Positions 10,166-58,962 of a DNA stretch of 64,000 nucleotides are shown here, piece after piece; the stretch's first letter is position 1, and every line of letters starts with the position of its first letter. The stretch comes from a virus. The stretch is taken from the IMG/VR virus record IMGVR_UViG_3300025009_000068, positions 25,433 through 89,432 of that record, one strand, 5' to 3'. Under the pieces are notes generated by a model that worked only from the letters and a program-made list of their open reading frames with translations, did no database searches and was not told where the DNA came from. A program made the translations under genes and the position numbers.

Positions 10166-10176
10166 TATCTTCTCCC

Positions 10177-15569: not shown

Positions 15570-16505
15570 CTACGTCAACACCGCATTGGCGTACAGGAGC
15601 GAAATGGCCTCGGGCCGCACCACCTCGAAGCCGTACACGGCGTAACCGCGCATGAGCTTGCCGAATGTGGTGGGGCTGGGGATGGCCTCTGACTTCTCCA
15701 CCTGCATGGCGAAGGTGAGTCCCATCTTGTGGCCGGCCATGATGTAGTAGGCCGTGACACCGGAGCCGTCCGCGACGTAGGGGACGTTGTTGGTTTTGAA
15801 AAGAGAAAAGCGATCTATCTTGCCCACGCGGCCGCCGTTTCGGAGGGTGGACATGGAGTCGCCGGTAAGGGAAGCGTCCTTTATGTCCGATCGCTTCAGC
15901 ATGTTCTCGAAAATGGGCGGAAGAAGGACCCACCACCCGCCGTCATCCGGGATGTTCTGCTCATCGAGGACCGTTCCCATGTGGATGATGTGGTCCAGGA
16001 TGTTGGTCTTGTCGATGGCGATGGGCGCCCCGCTGGTACCCAGGTTGAACGCTCCACTCTTTACGCCGGCCGTCGTGCCCTGGTTGTCCGCGTGGATGTC
16101 GGCATACATGGCACCGAACACCTGAGTTTCAATCGCCCGCTTCTTGTTTTCGACCGCCACCACCGACCAGCGGTCGATGATGTTGATGTCGCTCTGGGCC
16201 TTGTCGAAATCGTGGACCAAGAAGTTCCAGCCCTTGGCCCGGTCGATGGTCAGGGTTTCCGTGTCGGTATCCGGCTTCTGAACGGGGAGCTCGGCGCCGG
16301 GCACGGTGTCGAAGATGTTGATGTCGGGGTCTTTCCTGATGATGACCTGGCTGCCAAAGCCGGTGATCTCGCCTTGATAATCTGTGTTCGAGATAAAGGG
16401 AAGACAAAGTGCATCATACAGTCTGACCAGCACTTTTTGACTGAACAGGTAGGGGATGAAAGTCCCCTGGTAATTGGGATGTCCCGCTGCGGGAATGAAA
16501 GCCAT
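15570..16505 (-). CDS. Major capsid protein
   Basis: 311 aa from the ATG at 16505, with AAGGAG eight bases upstream. Sequence features of podovirus HK97-fold coat proteins: IPYLFSQKVLVRLYDALCL, SNTDYQGEITGFGSQVIIRK (N-arm/E-loop region), then VHDFDKAQSDINIIDRWSVV (spine helix) and NKKRAIETQ. The C-terminal domain reads AYYIMAGHKMGLTFAMQ...RGYAVYGFEVVRPEAI. It follows the scaffold gene directly, as usual for head genes. Confidence 0.85.
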   Translation of the reverse strand: MAFIPAAGHPNYQGTFIPYLFSQKVLVRLYDALCLPFISNTDYQGEITGFGSQVIIRKDPDINIFDTVPGAELPVQKPDTDTETLTIDRAKGWNFLVHDFDKAQSDINIIDRWSVVAVENKKRAIETQVFGAMYADIHADNQGTTAGVKSGAFNLGTSGAPIAIDKTNILDHIIHMGTVLDEQNIPDDGGWWVLLPPIFENMLKRSDIKDASLTGDSMSTLRNGGRVGKIDRFSLFKTNNVPYVADGSGVTAYYIMAGHKMGLTFAMQVEKSEAIPSPTTFGKLMRGYAVYGFEVVRPEAISLLYANAVLT

Positions 16506-16663
16506 GAGAATATCTCCTTCTTGGGAAATGCGAAGCGTGCCATGCATGCTCTGCGGGAATGCTTTGCATGCTGGCGCGCTTGGATTATATGGAAGGACAG
16601 CGGCTCATCCTCTCGGGTTTATGAATTAGGTTGGCCTTGAAGGTGAGTGTGGTGAAACTGAAT

Positions 16664-18373
16664 CTACACCCCCTGCACGAACCGAGCTTCTCCCGACTGC
16701 AAGCGCATGTCCGGGAGTTGCCCTTTAACCCTTCCTTCGAGGACGGCGATGTCCATGTCTCTTTTGATGGCCGCCCAGGTTGGATCTCTCAGCAATGCTG
16801 GATTCTTGGTCATCTTGGTGCTGTGGTCATTAATTTCCTGAATTGTGTACTCCCATTTCACGGGAGGGGCCTGCGGGGGGTTCCCGGCCATTGGCGACGG
16901 TTCAACCATGTACTCCAGGGGGTTATGGGGCTGACCCTGCTGATAATTTTGGCCTTGCTGCTGCCCGTGATTCCCTTGCTGGAACTGCTGTCCCTGCTGG
17001 ACCTGCTGGTTGACCTGGGGCCCTATGTAGATGGGCTGCCCAAATTCATCGAACTGCATGAATGTCTGCTGTTGAGACTGAGGATTCCCTTGCTGACCCT
17101 GCTGCACGATCTGCTGCTGCTGACCACTGTTTCCTTGTTGACCTTGCTGGACCTGCTGCTGGTTCTGCTGGCCCTGCTGCTGACCCTGCCCTTGCTGCCA
17201 TGATCCATCGGGCGGCTGTTGATTGTTGTGGGGCTGCTGGCTTCCAGGATTCTGCACATTTCCTTGCTGCTGCCCATTCTGCCGCTGCCCCTGGTTTGAT
17301 AAAAAGTCCGACCTGAAGGCGTTGTAGCACTCCGCGACGGCCACGGCGTCACCAGCCCCCCATGCCTCTTCGGCATCCTGCCGGTATGTTCTGACCGACA
17401 TGGGTTTCCGTTGATCCAGCCAGTTGTGAAAATCGGGCATGTTGTCGATCTGCTGCCATTCGGGACAAATCCTTCCAAGCTCGGCATGAAAAGCTCGCTG
17501 GGCATTGCCGGCACGCTCGGCGTTGACCTGCTCCACATTGGTCACAACCTTTCGCATTCCCTCGGTTGTCGCCGCGAGTTGCTGTTGCAGGTTCGCTATG
17601 ACACCTTCCTGGGACTGCATGTGCTGAACCATCTGCGGCATGATCCTGATCATGGGGGCGAGATCATCCGGGTAAGTGGCCGCGAGAGTTTCGAAGTCCA
17701 CTCCGGATAGGTCTATCGGGAATCCCCCGTTTGCACCGGATGCGCCTTGCTGTGTTGCCTGCCCTGCCTTGCCTTGCTGGCCTTGCTGGTTGAATTGTCC
17801 CTGCTGGCCCTGACTTCCTTGCCCTGTCTGGCTGGCCTGCACTGCTCCGCCTTGCCCTGCCTGCATCGCCTGTTCAAGCTGCACCATACGCTGCTCGAGT
17901 GTAGAAGCCTTGGCCTCGAAGGTGGAAGCCCTCTGCTCGGTCTCGCGGAGCTGGTGTTGCAGCCGCGGGACCTCTGCGTTGTACTTTCCCTGGAGGACCT
18001 GGAACTTCTGCTCTGCCGTGCGGTACATGCTTTCCCATTTCCGGTCTTCAGTCGTGATCTGCTGCTGTGTCTGCTGCTGCGGAGCAAGCTGACCCGGTTG
18101 AGGCTGATCCTGCTGAGCCTGGAAGGGAAGGGACTGTTGCTGTTGGGGCTGCTGTGCGGGCTGGCCTGGCTGCTGCTGCCCTTGCTGACCGGGTTGCGCT
18201 GGTTGTGGCGCCGTGGCACCGCCGCCTTCTCCGCCTTGAGCGCCCATGGGAGCCGTGTTCGCCTGGCCCGGGGGCGATCCCTCGCCGGGCGTCTGCTGCG
18301 GTATTCCCAAAGCGTGTTCAATGGCATCGATTTGCTGCTGTGCCTGTTTCACTACGTCGTTCAAGCCGGACAT
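16664..18373 (-). CDS. Gln-rich capsid scaffolding protein
   Basis: 569 aa from the ATG at 18373, with AAAAGGAG five bases upstream. The order is: short helix; Pro/Gln/Gly-rich segment (residues ~20-105); coiled-coil core (~105-170, LQHQLRETEQRASTFEAKAS, LEQRMVQLEQAMQ); more helices (~230-330); a long QQGQQ-type tract; and a basic helical tail. Charged or Gln-rich coiled coils just upstream of the coat gene are typical of scaffolds. The tail (VKWEYTIQEINDH...GRVKGQLPDMRLQ) probably contacts coat. The Q tract is encoded by CTG/TTG-rich repeats on the plus strand. Confidence 0.7.
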   Translation of the reverse strand: MSGLNDVVKQAQQQIDAIEHALGIPQQTPGEGSPPGQANTAPMGAQGGEGGGATAPQPAQPGQQGQQQPGQPAQQPQQQQSLPFQAQQDQPQPGQLAPQQQTQQQITTEDRKWESMYRTAEQKFQVLQGKYNAEVPRLQHQLRETEQRASTFEAKASTLEQRMVQLEQAMQAGQGGAVQASQTGQGSQGQQGQFNQQGQQGKAGQATQQGASGANGGFPIDLSGVDFETLAATYPDDLAPMIRIMPQMVQHMQSQEGVIANLQQQLAATTEGMRKVVTNVEQVNAERAGNAQRAFHAELGRICPEWQQIDNMPDFHNWLDQRKPMSVRTYRQDAEEAWGAGDAVAVAECYNAFRSDFLSNQGQRQNGQQQGNVQNPGSQQPHNNQQPPDGSWQQGQGQQQGQQNQQQVQQGQQGNSGQQQQIVQQGQQGNPQSQQQTFMQFDEFGQPIYIGPQVNQQVQQGQQFQQGNHGQQQGQNYQQGQPHNPLEYMVEPSPMAGNPPQAPPVKWEYTIQEINDHSTKMTKNPALLRDPTWAAIKRDMDIAVLEGRVKGQLPDMRLQSGEARFVQGV

Positions 18374-18730
18374 ACTTTCTCCTTTTGAGAGCCTTGAAGG
18401 GTGGGGCGGGGAGCAAGGCCGCGCGCTAAGGGTGTTCACCGTGGCGTGGATGATCCACAACCAACATGGCGAGCCCGGAACCGCGAGCCTGTCCCACTCC
18501 CTCCCTTCGAGGTATTCTCTGGTTGTGCCTGGCGGAGCCGAGAAGGGATGGATCTAAGCCACTTCCTCCACGGTGTTCCGCTCAAGGCAATGCGTTGAGG
18601 TGTGTGGTGGTTGATGTGAATGATGGTGCTGATTGTAATGTGATGGTTGATGATTATTTGGAGCCTAGACAGCGCCGATAGTCGCCACCGACGTGTTGCC
18701 ACGGCTCCCGTGGATGGAAGTGAAGATATG
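18374..18730. other. Non-coding gap between exported-repeat gene and scaffold
   Basis: No convincing gene: frames are broken or lack ribosome sites. It contains one dispersed motif copy (GCCTTGAAGGGTGGGG at 18391) directly before the scaffold ribosome site, a CCCTTCGAGG variant near 18497 and a TGATGG-rich stretch (18605-18655). It may hold the promoter for head genes, but no clear -35/-10 pair is visible. Confidence 0.5.
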
Positions 18731-18806
18731 AAAAAAAGTAGATCGCGCGGCCAGGCCCATGCGGGAGTATGGGCTCTTCGGGGATCTCTCCCTAGACCGC
18801 GCGATC
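18731..18806 (-). terminator. Three-way-junction hairpin plus T-run, terminator or structured RNA
   Basis: Perfect 10-bp outer stem GATCGCGCGG (18741-18750) with CCGCGCGATC (18797-18806). Inside are a 7-bp hairpin (18754-18760 with 18769-18775, 8-nt loop) and a 4-bp hairpin (18781-18792). On the leftward strand the outer stem is followed by TACTTTTTTT. This follows the exported-repeat gene (stop at 18849), so it terminates or attenuates transcription before the scaffold/capsid genes. The branched shape is more elaborate than a simple terminator. Confidence 0.65.
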
Positions 18807-18848
18807 ATTGTATTATCAGTACGCAATCAGCGCAAGGCCAACCTTTGC

Positions 18849-20507
18849 TTAATTATCCCCTAAATTTATCCAAGTAACCGTGATGGTCCCATTGGCGGTC
18901 AAAGAGTCTGCCGCACCGGTCGTGATGTCGGCATCATCCACTTCCACGTTTAGATACAGATCGATGGCCGTTGTGTGACCGTCGTGATAAACCTGCTCGG
19001 TGACGGTGCTTTGGAAATCAGCGGCAGCAACACTTGCTACCGCCTGAGTGGTTGCCACCGTGGGGACCCAGTCGTCTTCCGTGGTCGGATTATGCAGGGT
19101 AGGGGTAGCCTCTGCTGCCGTAGTGCCGAGCGAGATATCGCCGTCAAAAGCAGCGTCTATCGTTCCTGACGCCTCGGTCAGAGTGAGGTCGGCCACGACA
19201 CCCATGGCGAGCAATCTGCCCTCGGGGAAGTCGTAGATTTTCAGCCCGCCGTAAGCAGCGGCCCCGCCCGGATCGGTGATTGCAATGGTTGCATTGGTCA
19301 ACGTGAAGACGGTTTGGCATATCGCCCCAACACATCTTTCCGCAGCCACGACACCGGCACCGGCTCCAGCTTCTACGCCGGGTGTACCAGCTATAATCAC
19401 ATCATCAAGAGCTGAACCGATGGTGATGGTGTCCTTTACCGAATTGTCCGTTCCGATGTTGTAAGTGGCTCCCAAGGTTCCGTTTACAGCAAAGATGCCC
19501 CCTGCGCTCTCCATGGATACCGTAAGATCGTCGGCAACCGCGAAGTCCATATCATCGGCTGTATCGAGGGTAATGTCCTCGCCTTCGATATCCACATCAT
19601 CCAGGGCCGAACCTATGTCTATATCGTCAGCAACCGAATTGTCCGTTCCTATGCTATAAACTGCCCCAAGGGTCCCGTCGAACGAAGCGATACCGCCTGC
19701 GGTCTCCATTCGGACAGTGTAATCATCGGCTACGTTGAATTCCAGGTCGTCCGCTGAGTCCAAGATCAGGTCATTACCGTAGATGGTGGTGGCATCCTTT
19801 GCCGAGCCTATATTAATGGTGTCCGCCGTGGTGTCGTCGGTGCCGATATTGATGGTAAAACCGGACGTACCGGTAACAGCAAAAATGCCTCCGGCTGATT
19901 CCATGGTAAAGGTCCAGTCATCGGCTACCGTTGCATTGCCATCATCGGCTGTATCGAGGGTAATGTCCTCTCCTTCAATGTCAACGTCATCCTTTGCAGA
20001 CCCGATATCGATGTTGTCGGCCGTGGTGTCATCCTCTGCAATGGAGTAAACCAGCCCGGCCGTGCCATCAATGTCGATCAACCCAGATGCCGTAGTGCTG
20101 GTGATCTGAATGTTGTCCACGGAGCTTACGATGATGTCGCCGCCATTGGTTAGCGTCTCCACCTTTACGGAATCGGCCCCTGACCCTTCGCTTGAAATGA
20201 GAATGGAAGCGTTTTGGTTTCCGTTGAGATCGAAAATCATGTCCTCGCCGGCAGCACTGGCTGTCACCGTAAAGATCATGTCACCTGTAGTGTCCACGTC
20301 GAGACTGTCCATGGATACAATTTTCCCGCCGCGGGTAATCTCGAGCTTGTTTACGGTGAGGACTTCGTAGCGAGCCGCCTCCGCGATTGTGATCCCGAGA
20401 AAACAAATAATCCCCAGGAAGAGAGTGAGGACCTTGCCGAGGGTTTCCTTTTTGCTGCTTTTGGTGATGGTGGTGCTTTGGGTAATTCTTTTGTCAATTC
20501 TTTCCAT
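18849..20507 (-). CDS. Exported repeat protein with phage virion-type C-terminal domain
   Basis: 552 aa; AAAAGGAG upstream of the ATG at 20507. The signal peptide is LTLFLGIICFLGITIAEA|A around residues 28-46. The centre holds about three and a half tandem ~65-aa repeats (G-T-x-G...I-G-T-D-x-x-x-x-D-x-I-x-I-G-S-A...E-G-E-D-I-T-L-D-T-A-D-D...M-E-S-A-G-G-I), probably a beta-solenoid. The C-terminal 150 residues (LKIYDFPEGRLLAMGVVADL ... TITVTWINLGD) resemble decoration/fibre domains. An exported, repeat-built, virion-like protein between portal and scaffold is unusual. Confidence 0.6.
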   Translation of the reverse strand: MERIDKRITQSTTITKSSKKETLGKVLTLFLGIICFLGITIAEAARYEVLTVNKLEITRGGKIVSMDSLDVDTTGDMIFTVTASAAGEDMIFDLNGNQNASILISSEGSGADSVKVETLTNGGDIIVSSVDNIQITSTTASGLIDIDGTAGLVYSIAEDDTTADNIDIGSAKDDVDIEGEDITLDTADDGNATVADDWTFTMESAGGIFAVTGTSGFTINIGTDDTTADTINIGSAKDATTIYGNDLILDSADDLEFNVADDYTVRMETAGGIASFDGTLGAVYSIGTDNSVADDIDIGSALDDVDIEGEDITLDTADDMDFAVADDLTVSMESAGGIFAVNGTLGATYNIGTDNSVKDTITIGSALDDVIIAGTPGVEAGAGAGVVAAERCVGAICQTVFTLTNATIAITDPGGAAAYGGLKIYDFPEGRLLAMGVVADLTLTEASGTIDAAFDGDISLGTTAAEATPTLHNPTTEDDWVPTVATTQAVASVAAADFQSTVTEQVYHDGHTTAIDLYLNVEVDDADITTGAADSLTANGTITVTWINLGDN

Positions 20508-20567
20508 TTCGTGGTTCTCCTTTTCTTTTTTTCGTTGTTATGGCTGTAGCATGGTGCATGGTGCATA

Positions 20568-20867
20568 TTATTTTCGTTGGGGTTTAACCCAAACCCCATG
20601 GGTGGTATTCCACGCCTTGCCATGGGCGTTATAGCTCATGATCCGAAACATCAAGAGCCCCTTATCGGGAGCGCCACGCCAAACGTACTCGGTCTTGGCG
20701 CTCCCCGTGTCCCGAATCTCTCCCCATGACCGGCCCCTAGTCGTTGAGATCTGGAGCTTGTAGCCGGTCGCTCCGGCTGAGGCGTCCCACTCCAACGGGA
20801 TGTCTGCCGCGAAGGAATAGGACGCAAGAATGATGGTGATAGCTATCGTAAGCAGTATTCTCCCCAT
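20568..20867 (-). CDS. Small exported fibronectin-III-like protein
   Basis: 99 aa from the ATG at 20867 with AAGGA upstream. Signal peptide MGRILLTIAITIILASYSFA|AD, then one Fn3-like domain (IPLEWDASAGATGYKLQIST, YVWRGAPDKGLLMFRIMSYN). Fn3 domains are common on phage tails and on bacterial surface proteins. The signal peptide favours display at or beyond the host envelope. It is second from last in a run of four exported genes. Confidence 0.6.
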   Translation of the reverse strand: MGRILLTIAITIILASYSFAADIPLEWDASAGATGYKLQISTTRGRSWGEIRDTGSAKTEYVWRGAPDKGLLMFRIMSYNAHGKAWNTTHGVWVKPQRK

Positions 20868-20918
20868 CAATCCTTCTCCGCTCCAACAAAATATCAACGC
20901 ACCCACCCAACCGTCTCC

Positions 20919-21887
20919 TTAGCTGGCCCCGCCGTCCTCCCATTGGTTTCTATAATTGAGTCCATCTGCTACCGTGGAGGATCGGTTGTGAAGGCACATA
21001 TAACTCCCTGCCGTCGCTGGTGAATCTATGCAGTCCCCGGCCCCAATACCCGCCGAGTATGACCCGCCCACATCACCGTTGAATTGCATCGCGTCAGACA
21101 CCATATCAACGGTCAACACGGCAGCAGCATCAGTCCGGTAACACGCAAAATAGTTCGCAGTTGCAGGATGCCGAATCGTGCCGGCAACGGAAGCATGGAA
21201 AACCGAACCGGACTGAGCAGGTCCAGGCCCGAACTGATAGACGTCGTTGATGTCCCAGTTGTTGTCGGTCCCACCTGCAAGAGTGCAGGTTGCTCCGGTG
21301 GCTGTCGAGGCTGTAACCGTGCAGCTTGATGTATCTGTGACGTTGTAGAGCATCATACCAACTTTTGCAGAGGTGGCGCTTGAATCGTCGGCATGGATCA
21401 GCGTCGCACTGTCATCGGTTGTGGTGTGAACGCCGGATGGTGCGGTCAGAATAATGGTATCCATGAGGCGCGGAGCCTTGGTCTCCACCGCAGTCTCAAG
21501 ATCCTGAAACGCTTCCGGGAGCTTGGGGTCATCTCTGACTGTTGACCCCGTGAATGTCCCGTAAGTGTTACCAGGAACTAAAGCCACGGATGTGCTTGAA
21601 GCTGCCGCAGCCTCAGCATTTGTGGCGGTCTCGATCTTCCCTGCCACTGTCGAGGATGCGGCAGGGACACCAGCGACCACATCTATAGACCCAACCCCGC
21701 CAGTCTCACTCAACGCTCCATTGGAAACCTGAATTTCATAAACAGGCTTCTTGCTGGGACTTCCATCAGGCTCGGAAACAAGAATGCGGCCTCGCGCGGC
21801 ATGGGAGCAAGGAAGATGAAATGATACGACAAAAAAGCATGCGATAAAAAATGTAAACAGCAAATATTTATATGATTTCATGCCCAT
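20919..21887 (-). CDS. Exported protein of unknown function
   Basis: 322 aa from the ATG at 21887 with AAAGGAG upstream. Signal peptide YLLFTFFIACFFVVSFHLPC..HA|A. The mature part is Ala/Ser/Thr-rich and beta-like. Residues ~45-95 (EIQVSNGALSETGGVGSIDV...VAGKIETATNAEAAA) resemble fibre-shaft segments, and several Cys residues in the C-terminal half (SCTVTASTATGATCTL, FACYRTD, GDCIDSP, YMCLHN) suit disulphides formed outside the cytoplasm. Fibre or surface protein is an inference. Confidence 0.55.
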   Translation of the reverse strand: MGMKSYKYLLFTFFIACFFVVSFHLPCSHAARGRILVSEPDGSPSKKPVYEIQVSNGALSETGGVGSIDVVAGVPAASSTVAGKIETATNAEAAAASSTSVALVPGNTYGTFTGSTVRDDPKLPEAFQDLETAVETKAPRLMDTIILTAPSGVHTTTDDSATLIHADDSSATSAKVGMMLYNVTDTSSCTVTASTATGATCTLAGGTDNNWDINDVYQFGPGPAQSGSVFHASVAGTIRHPATANYFACYRTDAAAVLTVDMVSDAMQFNGDVGGSYSAGIGAGDCIDSPATAGSYMCLHNRSSTVADGLNYRNQWEDGGAS

Positions 21888-21912
21888 GCAACTCCTTTGA
21901 TGACTTCTATTC

Positions 21913-22425
21913 CTATGGCCTCTCAATATCAATGTAGATCACTCCGCCGTTCGCTGCCCCGGCAGCACTAACAGCCACCGTGACCTTCTCAAAAATCCAC
22001 AACTCTCCCAGCACGGGGAGCGCGGGCTCGGTCACAGTGGCGCTGCGATTGTCCAAACTCCCGCCATCCAGATCGATTCCCGTAGCTGCCCCAGAGAGAG
22101 AAATGTCGTAAGCTGCATCCGGAGCGAGAGCACCCCCCGACGGATCGGTGATAAACTGGTCAATGCGGCCAAGAAGTGGAATGGCGGTGGTGCATGCGTA
22201 GGCCCCGGCTCCATCCGATGTCCAGGCTATTGCATAGCGCGTGGTATGGCCATGGGTCGAGGGAGTGAGGGAGCAATCCACGGCATGAGAGACTGACGGG
22301 AACGAAAGGAGTGCCATAAAAATGAGAATGGAGGCCACAGCCATGGTAGCGGCCGCTGTCAGGATTGCCTTGAAGGGTGGAATCCCTCTCCTCTTCGCCG
22401 TATTTACCTTTATCACTCTCTTCAT
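21913..22425 (-). CDS. Exported small protein of unknown function
   Basis: 170 aa from the ATG at 22425. Signal peptide with basic start and hydrophobic core (AILTAAATMAVASILIFMAL) ending SVSHA|VDC. The mature domain has two Cys (VDCSL, AYACTTA) likely paired, and beta strands (RYAIAWTSDGAGAYAC, ELWIFEKVTVAVSAAG, GVIYIDIERP). It starts four bases after the preceding gene and overlaps nothing important. No family is recognised. Confidence 0.55.
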   Translation of the reverse strand: MKRVIKVNTAKRRGIPPFKAILTAAATMAVASILIFMALLSFPSVSHAVDCSLTPSTHGHTTRYAIAWTSDGAGAYACTTAIPLLGRIDQFITDPSGGALAPDAAYDISLSGAATGIDLDGGSLDNRSATVTEPALPVLGELWIFEKVTVAVSAAGAANGGVIYIDIERP

Positions 22426-22429
22426 GGCC

Positions 22430-22723
22430 TTATCTCCCTTTCCCTTGGAGCACGTCAAGTGCCGTAAGTTTCGCCGTCAAAATATCCGAAAGAATGCGAG
22501 CGGCCCCCTGGGACCTCACCAGGGCGTCCCCGCTGCACTCCACGCATTGCATTGCCATTTCCCGGTAAAGCCGCTGCTCCCATTGAAGGATGGTTTTGAA
22601 TTGCTGGTCTTGGGATAGCTTGGAGATCGCCAGCAGCACGCGCCGGTCTTCTTCCTTCTCGGGATTGAGTTGCTCGAGAAAATAAAGAGAGGGGGTTATC
22701 GTTGCTGCATTTGCCATGGTCAT
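22430..22723 (-). CDS. Small conserved-type protein next to portal
   Basis: 97 aa. Its ATG overlaps the stop of the portal gene (TAATG), so translation is probably coupled. Mostly helical (LYFLEQLNPEKEEDRRVLLA, QFKTILQWEQRLYREMAMQC). Possibly a head-assembly or portal-associated factor. No family is recognised. Confidence 0.6.
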   Translation of the reverse strand: MTMANAATITPSLYFLEQLNPEKEEDRRVLLAISKLSQDQQFKTILQWEQRLYREMAMQCVECSGDALVRSQGAARILSDILTAKLTALDVLQGKGR

Positions 22724-25185
22724 TATTGCACCCCCCCACCATTTCCGGCACGGGCCATCATTGCCTGGAAGTCAGCCCCGCCTCCACGAACACCAGCCTG
22801 ATTCATCTGCTGCGGTGCGATTATTGGTGGGCCGGCCGCTCCGTTTCCGCCTTGAAGGGGAGGGGACTGTCTGACGTTGCCACCGCCCGCGCCACCTTGT
22901 CCGCCGCCCTGCCCCTGCCCGGCCTCCATCAGCGCCTGAGCCATGACCTCCATGGGAATCCCGAGCCGCTCAGAAAGCACGCCCAGCATGGCCACCACTT
23001 TTTGCTGCTCCTGCTCTGCCGCCACGGCATCTTCATCCGGAATCAACCCGGAAAGATCGATATCCAAGCTCTCGACAGCGCTCCTCACAAGCTCGGCCAT
23101 TGCGGGCTTCCCGAGGATTTCGAGGATGATCGGAGATCGCAATGCCAACGACATGAACTCGTTCAGCCGGATCTGCCGCTGCTCCTCGACTATGAGTGCC
23201 GTGCTCCCGCGCGGAACAACAAACACATCCCCCTTCAAGGCATGATCCGAATCGTAAAGCATGACATGGTATGCGTGCTGCCTGACCGACGGCACCGTAA
23301 TCCCGTCGTCGATGTGGAAGATCACGGACTTTATCCCCTTGCCGGCGGCATTCATAAGCATGCTGAGTCCCGTGGCAGTGCGCGCGGCCCCGGAGCTCTC
23401 CGACATGCCGTACACGTAATTCGGTATCCCCGTGCTCTCTCCCGCCTGCTTGGCCCAGTAGTCGTAAACTTTTAAGAGCATGTCGGTCATGGGGTTTGGC
23501 GAGAAGAACTGAATAGGGATGGCGCTTCCCCCATTTGGGTCCCGCTTGAACTGCCACACCTTCCAGGGGGAAAACTCGTCTGATTTCTCGCCGGGCATGA
23601 GCCGTGACGCATCGGTTATGGCAACCTGCGGTCCCGAAGCCATTCCCATATTATTGACCACCGACCGCGCCGCGGCGTTGCACATATACTGCTCTGGAGC
23701 CATGACTTCCGGGAGGGCTTTCCCCCAAATCGAGCCAGGAACGTTTTCGAAGCTGGCGGAATAGTAAGGGCGATTCCCAAGCGGGTCGGGATTCACTATG
23801 GCCTTGATGACATATTGACCAACGGCCCGCGCACAGACCTGATATTCCCTTTCAGGCTCAATCGGCTCGACCTTCGTGACCATGGCGCCCGGCCGGCGCT
23901 CGGCACTTACATGCTCCCTCATTCCCCATTCGATGAGCAAGCTTCCCTGGACGGAGCCCCAGAAGATCAAAGAGTCCATTTTCCCTTCAGGATCCGAAGT
24001 GTATTCCTCTTCCCGGCTCTCTAATCGAGCGCGCTCCTGATCCTGGTAATCCCACTCGCGGTAACCGGTGCGCCCGTAGTGCTGCAAGCAAAGCCGAATC
24101 TGCTCGGAGTGATAGCCTGGAGTCCCGGCGAGGGATGCAAGCTCGGACCTGGAAATGGAATCCCGCTCCAGGAGATACCCATCCTGCAAGGTCCGGGCCC
24201 CTGGTGAAGGGAAGATGTCGAAAGGGGAAACGCGGTCATATTCCTTCACGAGCTTCTTTTCGACACGCATTTCCGGGTTCATCAAGTCTTGTGAGTGGTC
24301 CCAGACAATCCTGGCCTTCCTGCGGATCGTCGGGCCTTTAAGGAAAGCCGTTGGGAATGTGGCGATGTCGTAGAGCAGAGAATCGAGCGCGGAATACCAC
24401 CCGCCTTCCTTGAAGTCGTCATCAACCTTTTCCTCGAGCTTGTCCGACCGCTTCTTTCCTTCCTCGTCATAAGTCGCGGAAAGCTTCTCCTTCATTTTCT
24501 CGATGCGAGTCCGCAACTCTTCGGATGATATCGGGGCACCGGCCTCGAGGATTTCACGCTGAGCCTCGACAACCAGACGCTGCTCGAGCTGCGGTGAAAG
24601 CGTGGGGATCGGAGTTGCATTGAGAGAAAAAGGCTTCCCGCCGGGCGGGCGAAGAATGTCACGGCACCAGCTTTCGAGCGCACGACATTTGATGTTGGTG
24701 ATCATAATAAAGACTTCCGAGCCACCACGGGACTGAATGAGGGTAAGCTCGTCGGCCTCGTATTCCCCGAGGCGCTGCCGCAAGCATTTAAGCAGGCGCG
24801 GCTGAATGGATTGCTGCTTGGCGTTTCGCGCGGCCTCGAAGCATGTGCGAATGTGGGTTCCAATGGAGAGAATCTGCTGCTGGTTTTGGAGCTTCTCTGC
24901 CTCGGCCTGCTGGACTTGCATGCGTGAGTGGTAATCCAGCTCATCGTTTGAGATGAGGCGCATGTAGGGCTGAGGAGGAAGAGAAGACGGCGGAGGCGGT
25001 TGGTAAGGCGGATAGGGCTGGGAAGGAGAGAGAAGCCTTGAAGGTGGAAGGCCTTGCTGCGGCGCTGCTTGTGATGCCTGGCCGGTAGGCATTTGCTGTG
25101 CCTGCCCCACCTGGAATACCGGCACGGCTTGCTGTCTCATCCATCCCTGTTGGAGCCCGCCGCCACCACCCATGCCGCCTACCAT
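22723..25185 (-). CDS. Portal protein
   Basis: 820 aa from the ATG at 25185 with GGAG eight bases upstream; an in-frame TTG 39 bases upstream is less likely. The first ~80 residues are Gly/Gln/Pro-rich. The core has portal hallmarks: WCRDILRPPGGKPF, RIEKMKEKLSATYDEEGKKR, FKEGGWYSALDSLLYDIATF, VDKEYDRVSPFDI-like segment, and AARSVVNNMGMASGPQVAI plus PNYVYGMSESSGAARTATGL in the stem/crown. It directly follows terminase, the standard packaging order. The C-terminus is a Gly-rich tail (dispersed motif copy at 22849 encodes PPLQGG). Confidence 0.8.
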   Translation of the reverse strand: MVGGMGGGGGLQQGWMRQQAVPVFQVGQAQQMPTGQASQAAPQQGLPPSRLLSPSQPYPPYQPPPPSSLPPQPYMRLISNDELDYHSRMQVQQAEAEKLQNQQQILSIGTHIRTCFEAARNAKQQSIQPRLLKCLRQRLGEYEADELTLIQSRGGSEVFIMITNIKCRALESWCRDILRPPGGKPFSLNATPIPTLSPQLEQRLVVEAQREILEAGAPISSEELRTRIEKMKEKLSATYDEEGKKRSDKLEEKVDDDFKEGGWYSALDSLLYDIATFPTAFLKGPTIRRKARIVWDHSQDLMNPEMRVEKKLVKEYDRVSPFDIFPSPGARTLQDGYLLERDSISRSELASLAGTPGYHSEQIRLCLQHYGRTGYREWDYQDQERARLESREEEYTSDPEGKMDSLIFWGSVQGSLLIEWGMREHVSAERRPGAMVTKVEPIEPEREYQVCARAVGQYVIKAIVNPDPLGNRPYYSASFENVPGSIWGKALPEVMAPEQYMCNAAARSVVNNMGMASGPQVAITDASRLMPGEKSDEFSPWKVWQFKRDPNGGSAIPIQFFSPNPMTDMLLKVYDYWAKQAGESTGIPNYVYGMSESSGAARTATGLSMLMNAAGKGIKSVIFHIDDGITVPSVRQHAYHVMLYDSDHALKGDVFVVPRGSTALIVEEQRQIRLNEFMSLALRSPIILEILGKPAMAELVRSAVESLDIDLSGLIPDEDAVAAEQEQQKVVAMLGVLSERLGIPMEVMAQALMEAGQGQGGGQGGAGGGNVRQSPPLQGGNGAAGPPIIAPQQMNQAGVRGGGADFQAMMARAGNGGGVQ

Positions 25186-53424: not shown

Positions 53425-55701
53425 ATGTCTAAGCTGGCCAGGAAGACGCCATCACCTTGCAACGCATCTCAATCTTCCGCTCCCACCACCATCAACGCCG
53501 TAGAAACCATATCCGGGACCATAAAGGACATGAGCCGCCCCTTCACGGGAGGTTGGAGAATTATCCGGATCAGTGGCATTCCAGAAAAGGCTACCGGTGT
53601 TCTTCCGCTGGACTTCGAGGTCGGGGATTGCGTAACCCTGGAAGGGAAGTACGAAGAGACGGGGTACGGCCGGCAATTCAAATTCTCCAACGCCACCCGC
53701 GAGCTTCCCAGGGATACCATGGGAATCATCCACTACCTCGACCGCCTGCGCTGGGTCGGACCTACTCTTGCGCGTCGTCTCGTGGAGGCCTTCGGCCCAG
53801 CCCTCTTCGAAGTGATTGAGCACTCTCCCGGGAAGCTCTCCGAGGTCAATGGCATCACCCCGGCCCGAGCCCAGGAGATCCACGAGAAATACATCTCCAT
53901 CATGTCGGATCGCACGATTGACGTGTACTTCAGCACCCACGGGATAACGCCCTCCCTTCTGAACCGCCTCATGGACACTTACGGCACCAAGGAGAAAGCC
54001 AAGAAGCAGATCGAGGCCAACGTGTACCTTCTGGCCGACGATGTGTGGGGGATAGGCTTCAAGAAAGCCGACGCCATTGCCGTGTCCACCGGGATAAAAA
54101 AGGAAAGCAGGCGTCGTCTGACGGCCGGAATCAGGTATGTTCTGCAGGAAGCATCCGGTAGAGAAGGGCACACCTGTCTCCCCTTCGAGGAACTGGTCAA
54201 GCGCGCCGTGGAGATCCTCGAGGCCGGGAAGGAGAAGGTTGTTGAGGTGCTAAGCGAGATGATCGCCGCGGGGAAGCTGGTGGATTTTACGCCGGGGAGG
54301 GAAATGATGGGAATGGAGGCGCAGAAAAAGAGCGATGCCTTGAAGGAAGAAGCCCTTCCCTTCGAGGGTGATGCAGGCAAAGTCGATGCAACCACTCCCG
54401 CCCCCGTCACCTACATCTACACGGCAGAAATGTGGACCGCTGAAATCGACGTGGCACAGTCCCTCCTAAAGTTCGTCTCAACCCCCCATGCAGCCATGAT
54501 AAGCGAGCTCTCCTCGGATGAAATCAACTCCCTCGACCAAGACCAGCTTCGAGGCCTGGACCTCGCCATGACGTCAAAAATCATGGTTCTAGCGGGTGGG
54601 CCCGGAGTTGGCAAAACCCACTTGATCAACTTCATCATCCGAGCCATGGGTCGAGATTTGAATATTGCCCTGGCCGCCCCCACGGGAAAGGCGGCCAAAC
54701 GCATGTCCGAGGCAACCGGCGGTCGTGCGGCCATGACCATTCACCGCCTGCTCGCCTTTCATCCCGAGGTGGGATTCCGCCACAACCAGGACAACCCCCT
54801 CGACGTGGACGTGCTCGTGATCGATGAGACCTCCATGGTGGATGTGCAACTCATGGCGAGCCTGTTATCCGCGGTCAACCCGGAGAAGACGCAGCTTATC
54901 CTCGTTGGGGACCCGGCCCAGTTGCCGTCGGTGAGTGCCGGGAGGGTGTTGGGAGACATCATCGAATCGTGGATAATCCCCACAGTGCATCTCACCACCC
55001 TTCATCGCCAGGCCGCGAAGAGTTACATCAACCGGAACGCTCAGCGAATCAATCGCGGCGAGAAGGTTGAGCTCAAAAATGATGGCGACTCGGATTTCTT
55101 CTTTGTGACCGAGGAGGACAAGCACGGCATCGCCCCCATGATAGAGAAGGTGTGCGTGAAATTCTCCGCGCACTATGGGTTTGACCTGAAGGATATCCAG
55201 GTGTTGTGTCCCATGAAGAAGGGGCCGGCCGGGACGATAGAACTGAATAGGCGATTGAGGCCCGTGATCAACGTCGAAGGGGTGGCTATAGGCGGGACGC
55301 CTTTTTTGACAGGGGATAGGGTCATCCAGACGAGGAACGATTACAAGAAGATGGTGTTCAACGGGGACATGGGGATTGTGCTTGGAGGGGATGCGAGTGC
55401 CGTTGTGGTCATGATCGATGATCGGGAAGTCGAGTATGCTTCCAAGGATTTTGAGCAACTACAGATGGCTTATGCGCTTACTGTTCACCGATCACAAGGG
55501 AGTGAATTTCCCGTTGTTGTGATCCCGGTACACACCACAAATTATATTCAACTCCGGAGAAATCTCTTGTATACTGCCATCACTCGTGCTAAAAGGTATG
55601 TTGTCTTGGTAGGCCAACAAAAGGCAATAAACCTTTGCATAAGGACGACAGATGCAAGCAATAGATTTACAAATCTTGCAAGAAGGCTCAGAGGTCAATA
55701 A
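53425..55701 (+). CDS. recD2: RecD2-like superfamily 1B helicase
   Basis: 758 aa. An N-terminal OB-like region and helix-hairpin-helix repeats (LRWVGPTLARRLVEAFGPAL, SEVNGITPARAQEIHEKYIS) precede the motor: Walker A LAGGPGVGKTHLINFIIRAM (~residue 390), motif Ia APTGKAAKRM, Walker B DVLVIDETSMVDVQLM (~461), motif III LILVGDPAQLPSVSAGRV, and the UvrD_C_2 end AYALTVHRSQGSEFPVVVIP. Unwinds DNA 5'-3' in repair or replication. The last ~85 codons are visibly AT-richer and run into the homing endonuclease, which starts inside this gene. Confidence 0.85.
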   Translation: MSKLARKTPSPCNASQSSAPTTINAVETISGTIKDMSRPFTGGWRIIRISGIPEKATGVLPLDFEVGDCVTLEGKYEETGYGRQFKFSNATRELPRDTMGIIHYLDRLRWVGPTLARRLVEAFGPALFEVIEHSPGKLSEVNGITPARAQEIHEKYISIMSDRTIDVYFSTHGITPSLLNRLMDTYGTKEKAKKQIEANVYLLADDVWGIGFKKADAIAVSTGIKKESRRRLTAGIRYVLQEASGREGHTCLPFEELVKRAVEILEAGKEKVVEVLSEMIAAGKLVDFTPGREMMGMEAQKKSDALKEEALPFEGDAGKVDATTPAPVTYIYTAEMWTAEIDVAQSLLKFVSTPHAAMISELSSDEINSLDQDQLRGLDLAMTSKIMVLAGGPGVGKTHLINFIIRAMGRDLNIALAAPTGKAAKRMSEATGGRAAMTIHRLLAFHPEVGFRHNQDNPLDVDVLVIDETSMVDVQLMASLLSAVNPEKTQLILVGDPAQLPSVSAGRVLGDIIESWIIPTVHLTTLHRQAAKSYINRNAQRINRGEKVELKNDGDSDFFFVTEEDKHGIAPMIEKVCVKFSAHYGFDLKDIQVLCPMKKGPAGTIELNRRLRPVINVEGVAIGGTPFLTGDRVIQTRNDYKKMVFNGDMGIVLGGDASAVVVMIDDREVEYASKDFEQLQMAYALTVHRSQGSEFPVVVIPVHTTNYIQLRRNLLYTAITRAKRYVVLVGQQKAINLCIRTTDASNRFTNLARRLRGQ

Positions 55702-56413
55702 AGAGACCTGGATTCCAGTGTGGTGGTGCCAGGATTATGATGTATCGAATTTTGGAAGGGTGAGATCGAGAAAAAGGAAATTACCAATAATACTTTCTGC
55801 ATGTCCAAACCAGTGGGGCTATTTGCAAGTTGCCCTGTGTCAGAATGGCAAGGTAAAATGTTGCAGAATTCATGTTTTGGTTTTGGAAGCATTTGTATGC
55901 AAGCGACCCAGTGGCAAAAATGCTAATCATAAAGATGGAAATAAGAATAACAATTTTGATTTTAATCTTGAATGGGTAACTCATCAAGAAAATGTAATCC
56001 ATTCATATAAAACTGAGTTAAAGCATGGTCTGCGTGGAGAGAAAAGCGGAAGGAGTAAACTAAAAGATGGTGAAGTGTGGCTTATTAAGAAGCTATGGCT
56101 TTCTGGAATACCGTCAATACTAATAGGCAAGATGTTCAAAGTAACTCCTCATCATACGGCTAGAATAGGAAGAGATGAGTTGTGGGGAGACATTGACATA
56201 TCTTATGATGAAGTTTCGCCAGTTAAATACAAAACAGATGATTATGGAGAGCGTCACTTCAAGTCCAAATGGAAAGATGGTGAAGTTTGGCTCATAAAGA
56301 AACTGCTTAACGCCAATATTGATAGAAAGATTATACAAAAGATGTTTAATATGAAAAAATCCAATCTTTCTCACATAGCTGTTGGTATGACGTGGCGTCA
56401 TATTGAAGTGTGA
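55652..56413 (+). CDS. NUMOD4-HNH homing endonuclease
   Basis: 253 aa; AAGGA seven bases before the ATG at 55652, inside the recD2 end (50-bp overlap in another frame). NUMOD4: ETWIPVWWCQDYDVSNFGRV, then HNH: IHVLVLEAFVCKRPSGKNAN-HKDGNKNNN and NLEWVTHQENVIHS. The C-terminus has a duplicated DNA-binding module (LKDGEVWLIKKLWLSG and WKDGEVWLIKKLLNAN). Strongly AT-rich against the ~55% GC phage background, so it is a recent mobile insert. It is free-standing, not in an intron. Confidence 0.85.
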   Translation: MQAIDLQILQEGSEVNKETWIPVWWCQDYDVSNFGRVRSRKRKLPIILSACPNQWGYLQVALCQNGKVKCCRIHVLVLEAFVCKRPSGKNANHKDGNKNNNFDFNLEWVTHQENVIHSYKTELKHGLRGEKSGRSKLKDGEVWLIKKLWLSGIPSILIGKMFKVTPHHTARIGRDELWGDIDISYDEVSPVKYKTDDYGERHFKSKWKDGEVWLIKKLLNANIDRKIIQKMFNMKKSNLSHIAVGMTWRHIEV

Positions 56414-56459
56414 TGTTGGGCTCGGTGAGTAGACAACCCAGCGATTCGGGAAAGATCCA

Positions 56460-56708
56460 ATGGGCTGGAAGTTTGTGTGCCCCTCCTGTGGCTACGTTGC
56501 CAGCGTTAAGGATTGGAAGGATGCCGGGGCATCAGACCGGGAAGCGGCTTTCTCCTGTGTGGGACGAGCGATGAATTCTGATAAGCAGATTTTCGATAAA
56601 ACGGGCGGGCCATGCAATTACGCCGGCGGGGGGCTCTTTGGGCTCAACCCGGTCACGGTTGATTTTGACGGAAAGGCCATTAAGGTTTTCGCGTTTGCGG
56701 AAGCCTAA
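56460..56708 (+). CDS. Cassette 1: VVA0879-family-like protein, 5'-truncated
   Basis: 82 aa. WKFVCPSCGYVASVKDWKDA, FSCVGRAMN and GPCNYAGGGLFGLNPVTVDF match the VVA0879 family of small Cys-rich proteins. In-frame codons before the ATG still encode family-like T-T-Q-R-F-G-K-D-P but run into a stop, so the natural N-terminus is missing. The ribosome site is weak. The stop lies inside the attC1 R'' box, as usual for cassette genes. Confidence 0.65.
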   Translation: MGWKFVCPSCGYVASVKDWKDAGASDREAAFSCVGRAMNSDKQIFDKTGGPCNYAGGGLFGLNPVTVDFDGKAIKVFAFAEA

Positions 56709-56795
56709 CCCAGTAATGAACCAGACGGGTACCACGCCTTGGTTTTATGCAGTCGGCGGTGCTAGGGTGCCCGCTGGTTATCGCCAAAGTTAGGC
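56703..56795 (+). repeat. attC1 recombination site
   Basis: 93 bp from GCCTAAC (56703-56709) to GTTAGGC (56789-56795). Arms pair around AACCAG/CTGGTT and GGGTACC/GGGTGCCC. Crossover is expected at G|TTAGGC. Confidence 0.85.
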
Positions 56796-56813
56796 CGCGC
56801 GAGAGTAAAGTCA

Positions 56814-57665
56814 ATGCCAAGAGCACAGCAAATGTCGGTAGTACCATTGCAAAACGTGGTCGCTGAGTCCGTGGGTTTTATGCAGGCTCATGAACCATCT
56901 GAGGGGTATATGGTTTGCAATAGTTTCGGCAAAGACTCAGTTGTGCTCATGGAGTTGGTGAAAATGGCTGGAGTTAAATGCTTTCCGGTCCACAGCTTCA
57001 CCGGCATTGATCCACCTGAGGCGATCAAGTTCGGGCTCAAGACATACCCTGATACTCGTATTTACCGTCCCGTCATGTCTATGTGGGAAGGCATCAGAGC
57101 TAAGTTTCCTCCCGTTTTTAATAAGCGCTGGTGTTGCGACGTACTAAAGAAAGACCCAACGAAAGCTATCCCCTTGAAACACAAACTGGTTGGCATACGG
57201 GCCGAAGAGTCTCCAGGGAGGAAAGAGCGTGGGAGGATTTCAAGGTTTCGCGGCAAATGGCAGTATTCTCCCATTTTCGAGTGGCACGAATGGCACGTCT
57301 GGGAGTTCATCGAAGGTCTTGGCCTGCCATTTTGCGAACTGTATGACCAGGGCTTTGACCGGATCGGCTGAATGGTGTGCCCTTTAATCGTCTCGGTCGG
57401 GATGGGTAAGGTGAAGCAGCACAGGCAAAGGTGGCCCGGATGTTATCGGGTTTTTGAGCATGCGGTCACATGGTGGTTCTGGAACAAGGCTGGCGAAGAC
57501 AAGACTCGCTGGCCCACACCCAAAGCATACCTGGACGCATGGTACCGTGGATTCAAATCATCTAACAAGCGCATGCAGCCGGACACCGACCACGCGGGGG
57601 CAATTCAGTTGCGTCTCTTCGAGTCCTCGGCCCGCGTGATCGGTGCCGCTGATGCGCAGCGTTAG
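56814..57665 (+). CDS. Cassette 2: PAPS-reductase-family protein with in-frame UGA (likely selenocysteine)
   Basis: 283 aa if the UGA at 57369-57371 is read through (185 + 1 + 97). Adenylylsulfate/PAPS reductase superfamily features: P-loop-like YMVCNSFGKDSVVLMELVKM, then FTGIDPPEAIKF, FNKRWCCDVLKKDP and LVGIRAEESPGRK. The family continues G-F-D/K-R-I-G-C-x-x-C-P. Here it reads GFDRIG-[UGA]-MVCPL and then RWPGCYRVFEHAVTWW, so the UGA replaces the first Cys of CxxC. Elsewhere UGA is a normal stop. The frame stays open and family-like downstream. The last ~35 residues are encoded by attC2. Alternatives: nonsense mutation or base error. Confidence 0.75.
57369..57413 (+). promoter_or_regulatory. 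Candidate bacterial SECIS element
   Basis: Directly after the UGA: CCUU and AUC on the 5' side can pair with GAU and AAGG on the 3' side, enclosing CUCGGUCGG. The apical loop holds GGU with its two G residues 24-25 nt after the UGA, within the spacing typical of bacterial SECIS hairpins (E. coli fdhF also has GGU in the loop). Folding was done by eye, so this is suggestive only. Confidence 0.5.
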
Positions 57666-57667
57666 AC
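57560..57667 (+). repeat. attC2 recombination site
   Basis: 108 bp from ATCTAAC (57560-57566) to GTTAGAC (57661-57667). Strongly paired arms: GCGCATGCAGCCGGACACCGA against TCGGTGCCGCTGATGCGC, with extrahelical bases as in typical attC sites. Confidence 0.9.
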
Positions 57668-57682
57668 GGCGAGGAGGTGGTG

Positions 57683-57883
57683 ATGGTAACAGTGAGTTTC
57701 CCGGCGGGCGACAGAGGTATCTCGTGCTGCGCCTGCGGCGGAAAGGTTATCGTGACGCGCACCACATTGAGGTGCCGCAAGTGCGGAACAACCGCACCCA
57801 ACGCTTGGGTGCCAAAGGGGTCTAACCCAGCAATGAACCCGACGCCGGCCACGCGCGTGAGTCGTGCTACGGAAACCCGTTAA
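57683..57883 (+). CDS. Cassette 3: small zinc-ribbon protein
   Basis: 66 aa; GGAGG five bases before the ATG. CCACGGKV...CRKCGTT gives two CxxC pairs (zinc ribbon). The reading frame continues through the left half of attC3. A short cassette protein of unknown role, comparable to rubredoxin-like knuckles. Confidence 0.65.
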   Translation: MVTVSFPAGDRGISCCACGGKVIVTRTTLRCRKCGTTAPNAWVPKGSNPAMNPTPATRVSRATETR

Positions 57884-57912
57884 GGCCGGCGCGGGTTATC
57901 GCCACGTTAGGC
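57820..57912 (+). repeat. attC3 recombination site
   Basis: 93 bp from GTCTAAC (57820-57826) to GTTAGGC (57906-57912). Arms AACCCGACGCCGGCC and GGCCGGCGCGGGTT pair with one extrahelical base. R'' is the exact complement of the GTTAGAC that opens cassette 3. Confidence 0.9.
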
Positions 57913-57933
57913 CGCGAGGCCCGAGGAGACGGA

Positions 57934-58110
57934 ATGAAAATGAAAGCGTGGGGCTATGCCCATCTCTTGGTCGAGGCGGAATTCGAAGTAGATGAGACTG
58001 GATGCGAGCATACGGAGGCAATGAAAGCTTTGAACGAGGCGGCCAGGAAAGAATACGGCATATATCCGTCGCAATTCGAGTTTTCGGATGGGATTAATAT
58101 CACGGAGTAA
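57934..58110 (+). CDS. Cassette 4: 58-aa protein, unknown
   Basis: 58 aa; GAGGAG five bases before the ATG. Reads MKMKAWGYAHLLVEAEFEVD, then a helix (HTEAMKALNEAARKEYGIYP) and SQFEFSDGINITE. Compact alpha/beta cassette protein, no family recognised. Stop at 58108-58110, four bases before attC4. Confidence 0.7.
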   Translation: MKMKAWGYAHLLVEAEFEVDETGCEHTEAMKALNEAARKEYGIYPSQFEFSDGINITE

Positions 58111-58113
58111 ATG

Positions 58114-58206
58114 GCCTAACCCAGGGCTGGAGCCGAAGCGGGCCACGCGTGGTGCTACGGAAGTCCGTGGTACTACGGCCCGCTCGGCTCAGCCCCAATG
58201 TTATGC
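58114..58206 (+). repeat. attC4 recombination site
   Basis: 93 bp from GCCTAAC (58114-58120) to GTTATGC (58200-58206; one base off the GTTRRRY consensus). Arms GGGCTGGAGCCGAAGCGGGCC and GGCCCGCTCGGCTCAGCCC pair with two extrahelical bases. R'' complements the GTTAGGC opening cassette 4. Confidence 0.9.
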
Positions 58207-58223
58207 GGCGAAAGGGGGAGGTG

Positions 58224-58433
58224 ATGAAGTGTGGAGCTGTCAACGAGACGTTCCCGCACGTGGCCTGTGAGTTGGAGCCAGGGCACTCGGGGAGACACGG
58301 GGCTATTAGGCCCATGCGTGGCGGTGGTGAGGGGGTGTATTTATGGCATAACCCAGGGCTGCAGGCGACGGCGGAGGAAGCCCGAGACGTTGGTTCAGAG
58401 TCCTTGGCCGCCGCGCCTGAGCCCCAATGTTAG
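58224..58433 (+). CDS. Cassette 5: small Cys/His protein
   Basis: 69 aa; GGGGGAGG directly before the ATG. MKCGAVNETFPHVACELEPG followed by HSGRHGAIR gives a C...C...GH.G.H arrangement likely to hold zinc. The frame runs through attC5 to a TAG in its right end, so the last ~30 residues are attC-encoded. Role unknown. Confidence 0.6.
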   Translation: MKCGAVNETFPHVACELEPGHSGRHGAIRPMRGGGEGVYLWHNPGLQATAEEARDVGSESLAAAPEPQC

Positions 58434-58435
58434 GC
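58346..58435 (+). repeat. attC5 recombination site
   Basis: 90 bp from GCATAAC (58346-58352) to GTTAGGC (58429-58435). Arms GGGCTGCAGGCGACGGCGG and CCGCCGCGCCTGAGCCC pair with extrahelical bases. GCATAAC is the exact complement of attC4's unusual GTTATGC, showing that this cassette inserted as an intact circle. Confidence 0.9.
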
Positions 58436-58458
58436 CACTTGGGACAGGAGCTGGAAGA

Positions 58459-58842
58459 ATGACGAAAAATGAACGGGTGGATATGGTCAATCAGGCATTG
58501 GAGGCAATCGCTTCCAACGGCAGGCGGTTTTTTTATCATGAAAACCGAGTGTCCAAGATGGAGGTGGACGCTAGAGGGCGAGTCTGGTTTGTGGATTCGT
58601 ACTCACAACGGCGCATTTTCACGCATTGCCCATTCAGCCGATGGAGAGGATTCACAAATGGCGGCACACTCAAGGCTCTTGTTTGTCATTTTAGGGACTT
58701 CATCACAAAAGCAAAGCCGGTACCGGCCCATTGCTTTGGACCGTGGCCGGAATGGTATTGCGATGGGGATCTGTGGGGTTATGGTGAAGATATGGCGTTG
58801 GTTCGGAGTGCAGCCGTGAAGATTGGTATTGTGGCGTCGTGA
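58459..58842 (+). CDS. Cassette 6: 127-aa protein, unknown
   Basis: 127 aa; AGGAG eight bases before the ATG. NQALEAIASNGRRFFYHENR, then VSKMEVDARGRVWFVDSYSQ, FSRWRGFTNGGTLKALVCHF and FGPWPEWYCDGDLWGYGEDM. Looks like a single globular domain rich in Trp/Phe. Size and arrangement are typical of cassette hypotheticals. Last gene of the array. Confidence 0.7.
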   Translation: MTKNERVDMVNQALEAIASNGRRFFYHENRVSKMEVDARGRVWFVDSYSQRRIFTHCPFSRWRGFTNGGTLKALVCHFRDFITKAKPVPAHCFGPWPEWYCDGDLWGYGEDMALVRSAAVKIGIVAS

Positions 58843-58899
58843 CCCTGTGTGGTGGAGCCGAAGCTGGCAACTTGAGAGTGCTACAATGATCCGTGGAAT
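58838..58899 (+). repeat. attC6 remnant
   Basis: CCTGTGTGGTGGAGCCGAAGC and the following GTGCTAC...TCCGTGG align with the left half of attC4 (GGAGCCGAAGC, GTGCTACGGAAGTCCGTGG), but the right arm and GTTRRRY box are missing. The element is cut off at the palindrome starting at 58900, marking the eroded right edge of the array. Confidence 0.65.
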
Positions 58900-58962
58900 G
58901 CCTTGAAGGGAAGGGCTTGCTTTTTTACGCCACCAACGCAAGCCCTCCCATCCCTTCAAGGC
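58900..58962. terminator. Long palindrome between convergent genes
   Basis: GCCTTGAAGGGAAGGGCTTGC (start 58900) pairs with the arm 58938-58962 ending CCCTTCAAGGC, with a 4-base bulge and a T6-containing loop. It lies between the last cassette and a leftward phage gene. It is formed by two opposed dispersed-motif copies and is probably a bidirectional terminator. Confidence 0.65.

Follow-up and report, generated by a model that had tools for sequence, protein, structure and literature searches.

Integron gene cassettes at two sites of a probably virulent tailed phage, with different cassettes in a sister phage and a candidate selenoprotein among them

How a row of integron gene cassettes came to lie among the genes of a tailed phage, and whether such a row stands still or is renewed, are the questions raised by a locus in the IMG/VR record IMGVR_UViG_3300025009_000068 (89,432 bases; hereafter G000). 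We analyzed a stretch of 64,000 bases of this record, positions 25,433 to 89,432 (the window; coordinates are those of the window unless given as record positions), in which an earlier note had described an integron cassette array embedded in a phage genome. We class the locus as a CALIN (cluster of attC sites lacking integron integrases): five attC sites stand in a row, no integron integrase is found in the record, and it is not a complete integron. We consider it likely that this CALIN is cargo of a probably virulent tailed phage, acquired when the integron integrase (IntI) of a host captured cassette circles. A cassette array in a phage is in itself a known phenomenon; the parts worth following are the comparison with a sibling phage and a candidate selenoprotein. 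The elements of the array are:

56415-56789, plus strand: cassette 1; gene 56460-56708, VVA0879-family CxxC protein; start box GTTGGGC
56703-56795, plus strand: attC1; model R2 65.0 bits, E 6.6e-15
56790-57661, plus strand: cassette 2; 3'-phosphoadenosine 5'-phosphosulfate (PAPS) reductase-like gene 56814-57665, read through a TGA
57560-57667, plus strand: attC2; outlier type, 108 bp, overlapping the 3' end of the PAPS gene; model R2 28.7 bits, E 9e-5
57662-57906, plus strand: cassette 3; small CxxC protein gene 57683-57883, its frame entering attC3; R''/start match 7/7
57820-57912, plus strand: attC3; model R2 78.9 bits, E 8.6e-19
57907-58200, plus strand: cassette 4; 58-aa gene 57934-58110, no family match; R''/start match 7/7
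58114-58206, plus strand: attC4; model R2 57.3 bits, E 9.2e-13
58201-58429, plus strand: cassette 5; gene 58224-58433, no family match, its frame running through attC5; GTTATGC/GCATAAC match 7/7
58346-58435, plus strand: attC5; model R2 50.3 bits, E 8.7e-11; an attC of the sister phage is equally placed before the same last gene
58430-58842, plus strand: last cassette; gene 58459-58842, phage-type protein, also in the sister phage
58845-58900, plus strand: possible half-attC remnant, recognized by eye
58900-58962, no strand assigned: inverted repeat, possible terminator, between two convergent gene blocks

Judged by their sequences, the five attC sites of the window are real. Covariance model R2 was trained on three attC sites from beyond the window, of which one lies in the same phage record and two lie in the sister phage (all three are related by descent to the sites tested and not independent of them); it recovered five of five with E values from 9e-5 to 9e-19, and over 242 kb comprising the window and four control records it reported one further site, in Shewanella prophage M16-3. 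All five have inverted R''/R' boxes of the GTTRRRY type, with the variant GTTATGC in attC4 and attC5. Eight aligned sites (five from the window, one from the same record outside it and two from the sister phage) share one stem fold, in which 93.5% of 200 cells are paired and 14 of the 25 base pairs show changes on both sides; the covariation score was reached by none of 500 shuffles and was lost when the partner was slid by 1-3 columns. The consensus fold has an imperfect L''/L' stem, one arm of which bears two single-base bulges separated by 6 bp; such a layout is usual for attC sites. By appearance seven of the eight sites are of one sequence type, the mean column identity of the alignment being 65%.

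Moreover, a scan of the record for boxes plus fold, with thresholds chosen after the sites had been seen, found 10 strand-sites, equal to 6 distinct sites, whereas 20 simulated genomes averaged 0.1. Chance hairpins as the source of the sites are ruled out by the covariation against shuffles and by these simulated genomes. The five intact sites of the earlier note are thus found where it placed them, scored by a model built outside the window and supported by compensated changes.

The cassette boundaries point to circles. Cassettes 1 to 5 measure 374, 872, 245, 294 and 229 bp, and the R'' box is an exact complement of the start of its own cassette (7/7) for attC3, attC4 and attC5, including the GTTATGC/GCATAAC pair, just as had been noticed before; circle-type ends are therefore exact in three of five cassettes, and the array described earlier is confirmed as a CALIN. 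As to its layout, six cassette genes on the same strand with phage genes on both flanks hold good, and the remnant attC at the right end was seen by eye and was not reported by model R1 at E up to 10.

The search for recombinases agrees with this picture. Profiles PF00589 (tyrosine recombinases) and PF00239 (serine recombinases) each matched none of three records, namely G000, the sister phage (IMGVR_UViG_3300002097_000027, 85,285 bases; hereafter G001) and a further record, G006 (IMGVR_UViG_3300025154_000083, 67,213 bases); G006 is a fragment and G001 possibly one, and the negatives cover these parts. In the controls PF00589 was positive in 14 of 14 genomes and PF00239 in 13 of 14. The absence of an integrase, which had been claimed for the window, extends to the entire 89,432-base record, where no phage-encoded integrase was found.

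Is the array then a fixed relic? G001 is collinear with G000, most pieces having 78-99% DNA identity. The array (locus A) lies between a helicase gene and the right-hand convergent gene block; there the alignment stops at record position 80,993 and resumes at 83,781. The gap amounts to 2,787 bp in G000, where it takes in the diverged helicase end, an HNH gene and all cassettes as far as attC5. In G001 it is 325 bp long and contains that phage's own helicase end, a single different small gene and the beginning of one attC. Thus locus A has five attC sites in G000 and one in G001, and the same last gene (96% amino acid identity) comes next in both.

A second locus (B) lies outside the window; across the circular junction it is about 10 kb away from where the array ends. 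In G000 it holds a solo cassette (record positions 4,647-5,121) with a 118-aa gene and an attC at 5,029-5,121. Its flanks are 93% and 90% identical between the two phages, whereas its contents differ: 522 bp with the solo cassette in G000, 605 bp with two other cassettes in G001, the second of which ends in an apparent half attC (by eye). In G000 both loci are found directly after a gene stop and before an inverted repeat, with 23-nt arms (83% complementary) at locus A, where a terminator-like match with a T run occurs at 58900-58916 (0.2 expected), and with perfect 14-nt arms at locus B. A terminator at locus B was also considered and, despite the perfect repeat, the consensus scan gave it no support.

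Since the siblings carry different cassettes at the same two sites, gain and exchange are favored over one excised chromosomal block. The second cassette locus and the different cassettes of the sister phage at both loci are new here: CALINs of phages were known mainly from single genomes, and the differences between siblings at two shared sites point to turnover. With turnover, the questions of whether cassettes travel between bacteria in lytic phages, and of which integrase acts on them, become accessible to testing.

Cassette arrays in phages have been published, virulent phages included, contrary to the remark in the earlier note that they are rarely or not described. According to the part of Qi et al. 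2023 (PMC9892861) that was available, 17 CALINs occur in 10,705 phage genomes, among them virulent phages; five of six tested phage attC sites recombined with IntI1; illegitimate or off-target recombination is raised as a route; and two temperate phages of Vibrio anguillarum hold different parts of the host integron. No comparison between sibling phages at a shared orthologous site was seen in that part of the article. On the same basis, the CALINs of TJE1, P12002L, PH101 and further virulent phages are alike in having an attC array with small genes and no integron integrase; in the present case, by contrast, the cassette content of the sister phages differs at both of the orthologous loci, and a candidate selenoprotein is encoded in one cassette. 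Moreover, the attC types of TJE1 and PH101 differ from those described here.

With model R1, TJE1, a phage whose attC sites have been shown by experiment to be active, yielded two weak matches (E 0.44 and 0.97); at E up to 1 there were none in the first 50,000 of 131,903 bases of PH101 or the first 40,000 of 41,427 bases of Vibrio p16. On 37 loci of distant relatives R1 gave one match (17 bits, E 0.11), judged to be chance. Since R1 is weak or empty in three of the four published integron phage records scanned, it detects a narrow range of sites, and finding nothing elsewhere carries little weight. One of the weak TJE1 matches (1462-1519), at the end of orf3, may be one of the published attC sites. 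The site in Shewanella prophage M16-3 (14967-15078) was scored by both models (R1 E 2.3e-8, R2 E 1.8e-7) and lies among hypothetical genes between tail genes, consistent with the placement of the CALIN in the available part of Qi et al.; unlike G000, M16-3 is an inactive prophage that encodes IntI. Sedentary chromosomal integrons likewise line up small cassettes on one strand, most of them with the same attC type; they differ from the present locus, which has no intI, no attI recognizable at the left junctions read by eye, and a phage location.

The explanation that we favor would proceed in steps. When the phage infects an integron-bearing host, the host IntI would recombine free circular cassettes into phage DNA, at first at secondary sites just past a gene end, beside an inverted repeat, and the resident attC would then serve as target for further cassettes and for exchange. 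Selection would retain whatever cassettes benefit the phage (several encode phage-type proteins), and the TGA of the PAPS-reductase-like cassette protein would probably be read as selenocysteine (Sec) by the host machinery. Of this scheme we infer the host IntI as the agent, the stepwise uptake and the Sec insertion. A broader proposal, in which the phage lineage uses its genome as an integrase-less integron, with gain, loss and swap at two post-gene sites via host integrase and with a circulating phage PAPS-reductase-like selenoprotein, seems to us evenly poised between right and wrong.

Several observations count against capture by a host IntI. G001 is the one close informative relative, and in a comparison of two genomes neither gain versus loss nor the order of events can be polarized. 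The sites attC1 and attC2 match their own cassette starts at 6/7 and 5/7 positions, and the solo attC of locus B also matches its own cassette start incompletely. The base before the first cassette is A or T, not G, in three of four arrays, and the first insertion sites are therefore non-canonical or mutated. No host or donor integron was found, two exact attC patterns having 0 matches each in bacterial genome contigs; in viral contigs both patterns matched G001 and G006 alone, and thus this attC type is not widespread there. G006 possibly does not come from an independent sample, and recombination of these attC sites is predicted from sequence.

The alternative that survives best does without an integrase once a first import has taken place: ordinary homologous recombination or mosaic exchange would then have carried cassettes from phage to phage. 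The genomes are indeed mosaic with many indels, the last attC and last gene are common to the siblings and offer homology on one side, and the HNH gene beside the array could drive local conversion. Nevertheless, the changes lie near cassette boundaries, the attC sites with their 65% identity are poor homology, and the exact R''/start match in three of five cassettes also speaks against this route; we regard it as possible though doubtful.

Capture by host IntI has also to be set against the view of the earlier note, which saw the array as a fragment cut out of a larger chromosomal integron; in this form, a block of a host chromosomal integron was captured once by illegitimate recombination and is now decaying. 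A chromosomal array would be expected to show one attC type, as seven of the eight sites here seem to do, and the ragged ends and the HNH gene at the left edge would suit such an event. However, two loci in each of two phages hold different cassettes within conserved flanks, three cassettes have exact circle-type ends, and the donor array was not found with the two exact patterns tried. The second locus and the different cassettes of the sister phage at both loci weaken this view, and we hold it unlikely.

The cargo raises a further question in cassette 2. Its gene is interrupted by an in-frame TGA, which the earlier note had not mentioned:

57369-57371, plus strand: in-frame TGA, candidate selenocysteine codon; Cys in homologues, TGA in the G001 homologue
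57388-57405, plus strand: selenocysteine insertion sequence (SECIS)-like hairpin, 7 bp with a GGUC loop, 16 nt after the TGA; weak

Selenocysteine is probably the best reading of this TGA, as the alignments suggest. With the TGA read through, the frame matches PF01507 at E 2e-24, and Cys stands opposite the TGA in eight of eight homologues examined, namely seven fetched from 18 phage matches (all seven with Cys) and L069, the nearest homologue found (58% protein identity), which has TGC at this position. The sister phage has one PAPS-reductase-like gene, at another genome position (67,425-68,246; L046 9490-10308, minus strand) and with 52% protein identity, and it carries a TGA (68040-68042) at the identical codon. 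The ratio of nonsynonymous to synonymous differences per site (pN/pS) before and after the TGA was 0.395 and 0.371 against L069, and 0.46 and 0.464 against the G001 gene, with synonymous sites near or at saturation in these comparisons. A hairpin with a GUC loop follows the TGA by 16 nt in the window and by 11 nt in the sister phage; none comparable was seen in the Cys homologue. Reassignment of the TGA codon was ruled out, as TGA stops 22 of the 73 genes predicted by a simple gene caller.

Two findings speak against selenocysteine. A start codon comes directly after each TGA (ATG in G000, GTG in G001), and thus the chief competing reading is termination at the TGA with re-initiation behind it; the hairpins are not unusual, as 58 of 200 shuffles in the window (z -0.54) and 23 of 200 in the sister phage (z -1.26) fold as well. 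By re-initiation, or by a nonsense mutation, the cassette would give a split PAPS-reductase-like protein. We find this improbable, because the same TGA codon recurs in two genes that are 52% identical and lie in different genome places, all homologues examined have Cys, and constraint is similar on either side of the TGA. Neither G000 nor G001 yielded any tRNA gene, tRNA-Sec included, and the host would therefore have to supply the Sec machinery. If selenocysteine is indeed inserted, a phage selenoprotein on a mobile cassette ties the use of this cassette to selenocysteine-decoding hosts, hinting at the host. The predicted structure of the PAPS-like protein (three sequences, mean predicted local distance difference test score 42.7) and a scan for further TGA/Cys pairs between both phages, which was swamped by shadow frames, were not used, and further candidates may exist. 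Several PAPS-like homologues end by eye in Q-x-x-L/M-F-like motifs, which resemble sliding-clamp binding motifs; the C-terminus encoded in the window lies inside attC2.

Among bacterial selenoproteins, TGA/Cys pairs are a criterion in the available part of the deep-Sep article (PMC12013277). The candidate is similar to these proteins in having a TGA aligned with Cys and a second TGA homologue, with at most a weak candidate stem-loop downstream, and unlike them it is phage-encoded and belongs to the PAPS-reductase family. In their main text, neither the deep-Sep article nor a marine survey (PMC2398784) nor two reviews (PMC13188914, PMC9312934) use the words "phage" or "phosphosulfate". As far as the available part of PMC6145125 tells, Basilisk-like phages carry tRNA-Sec, and some also a PAPS reductase.

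The remaining cargo was compared with protein families as well. At E <1e-4, PHROG matches were obtained for 4 of the 10 distinct cassette genes across G000 and G001: those of cassette 1 (phrog_32023) and cassette 2 (phrog_424, PAPS reductase, E 2.4e-29), the last gene (phrog_23101, E 4.8e-27) and, in the sister phage, the second gene at locus B (phrog_15583). The protein of cassette 1 belongs to the VVA0879 family (NCBIfam NF041591, 78 bits against a cut-off of 37) and has seven plasmid relatives; three of these seven loci (two Variovorax, one Nostoc) are ordinary gene rows, where R1 found no attC. The last gene is 37% identical to a protein of Vibrio phage Rostov 7 annotated as similar to SPbeta prophage YoqU, and R1 found no attC at that locus either. 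From the PHROG and plasmid matches, several cassettes carry phage- or plasmid-type genes. The protein of cassette 3 has weak zinc-ribbon-type matches at best; no family was matched in profile searches by the genes of cassettes 4 and 5, and the protein of the solo cassette had no match in phages.

The first 126 bases of the G000 record are repeated at its end and G006 spans its end-to-start junction, so the genome is circular, with about 89.3 kb. It is that of a tailed phage, with families for the large terminase, head-tail adaptor/portal, internal virion protein, DNA primase, exonuclease and RecD2-like helicase, and the phage is probably virulent. G006 is identical to G000 over 12,274 bp spanning the array, which makes a chimeric assembly less likely; that the array joins phage and bacterial DNA by mis-assembly, as the metagenomic origin of the record might allow, is exceedingly improbable, given this match (with the reservation made above on its sample) and the attC sites at the same loci in the separate record of the sister phage.

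On the left of the array two genes are found:

53425-55701, plus strand: RecD2-like helicase gene, conserved left flank; Pfam HHH_RecD2 2e-28, AAA_19 4.3e-40
55652-56413, plus strand: HNH endonuclease gene; phrog_59 E 2e-32, Pfam HNH_3 6.3e-7

The helicase has 83% amino acid identity to that of the sister phage, in which the HNH gene is missing at the corresponding place. In G000 the HNH gene stands between the helicase gene and the array and overlaps the end of the helicase gene (window 55562-56413). Over its last ~140 bp the helicase gene no longer shows DNA-level alignment to the sister phage, a pattern that co-conversion by a homing endonuclease might leave.

A scan of the window against Rfam returned no family at its gathering score. 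Elsewhere in the record, positions 9001-22731 form a single open reading frame of 4,576 aa for a polyvalent protein, with Strawberry-notch-type helicase, ADP-ribosyltransferase (ART-PolyVal) and LPD38 domains in the 3,332 aa scanned. The nonamer CCTTCAAGG occurs in 17 copies in G000 and 13 in G001, and its reverse complement CCTTGAAGG in 20 and 19 copies, respectively; by our own estimate less than one copy of each would be expected in G000.

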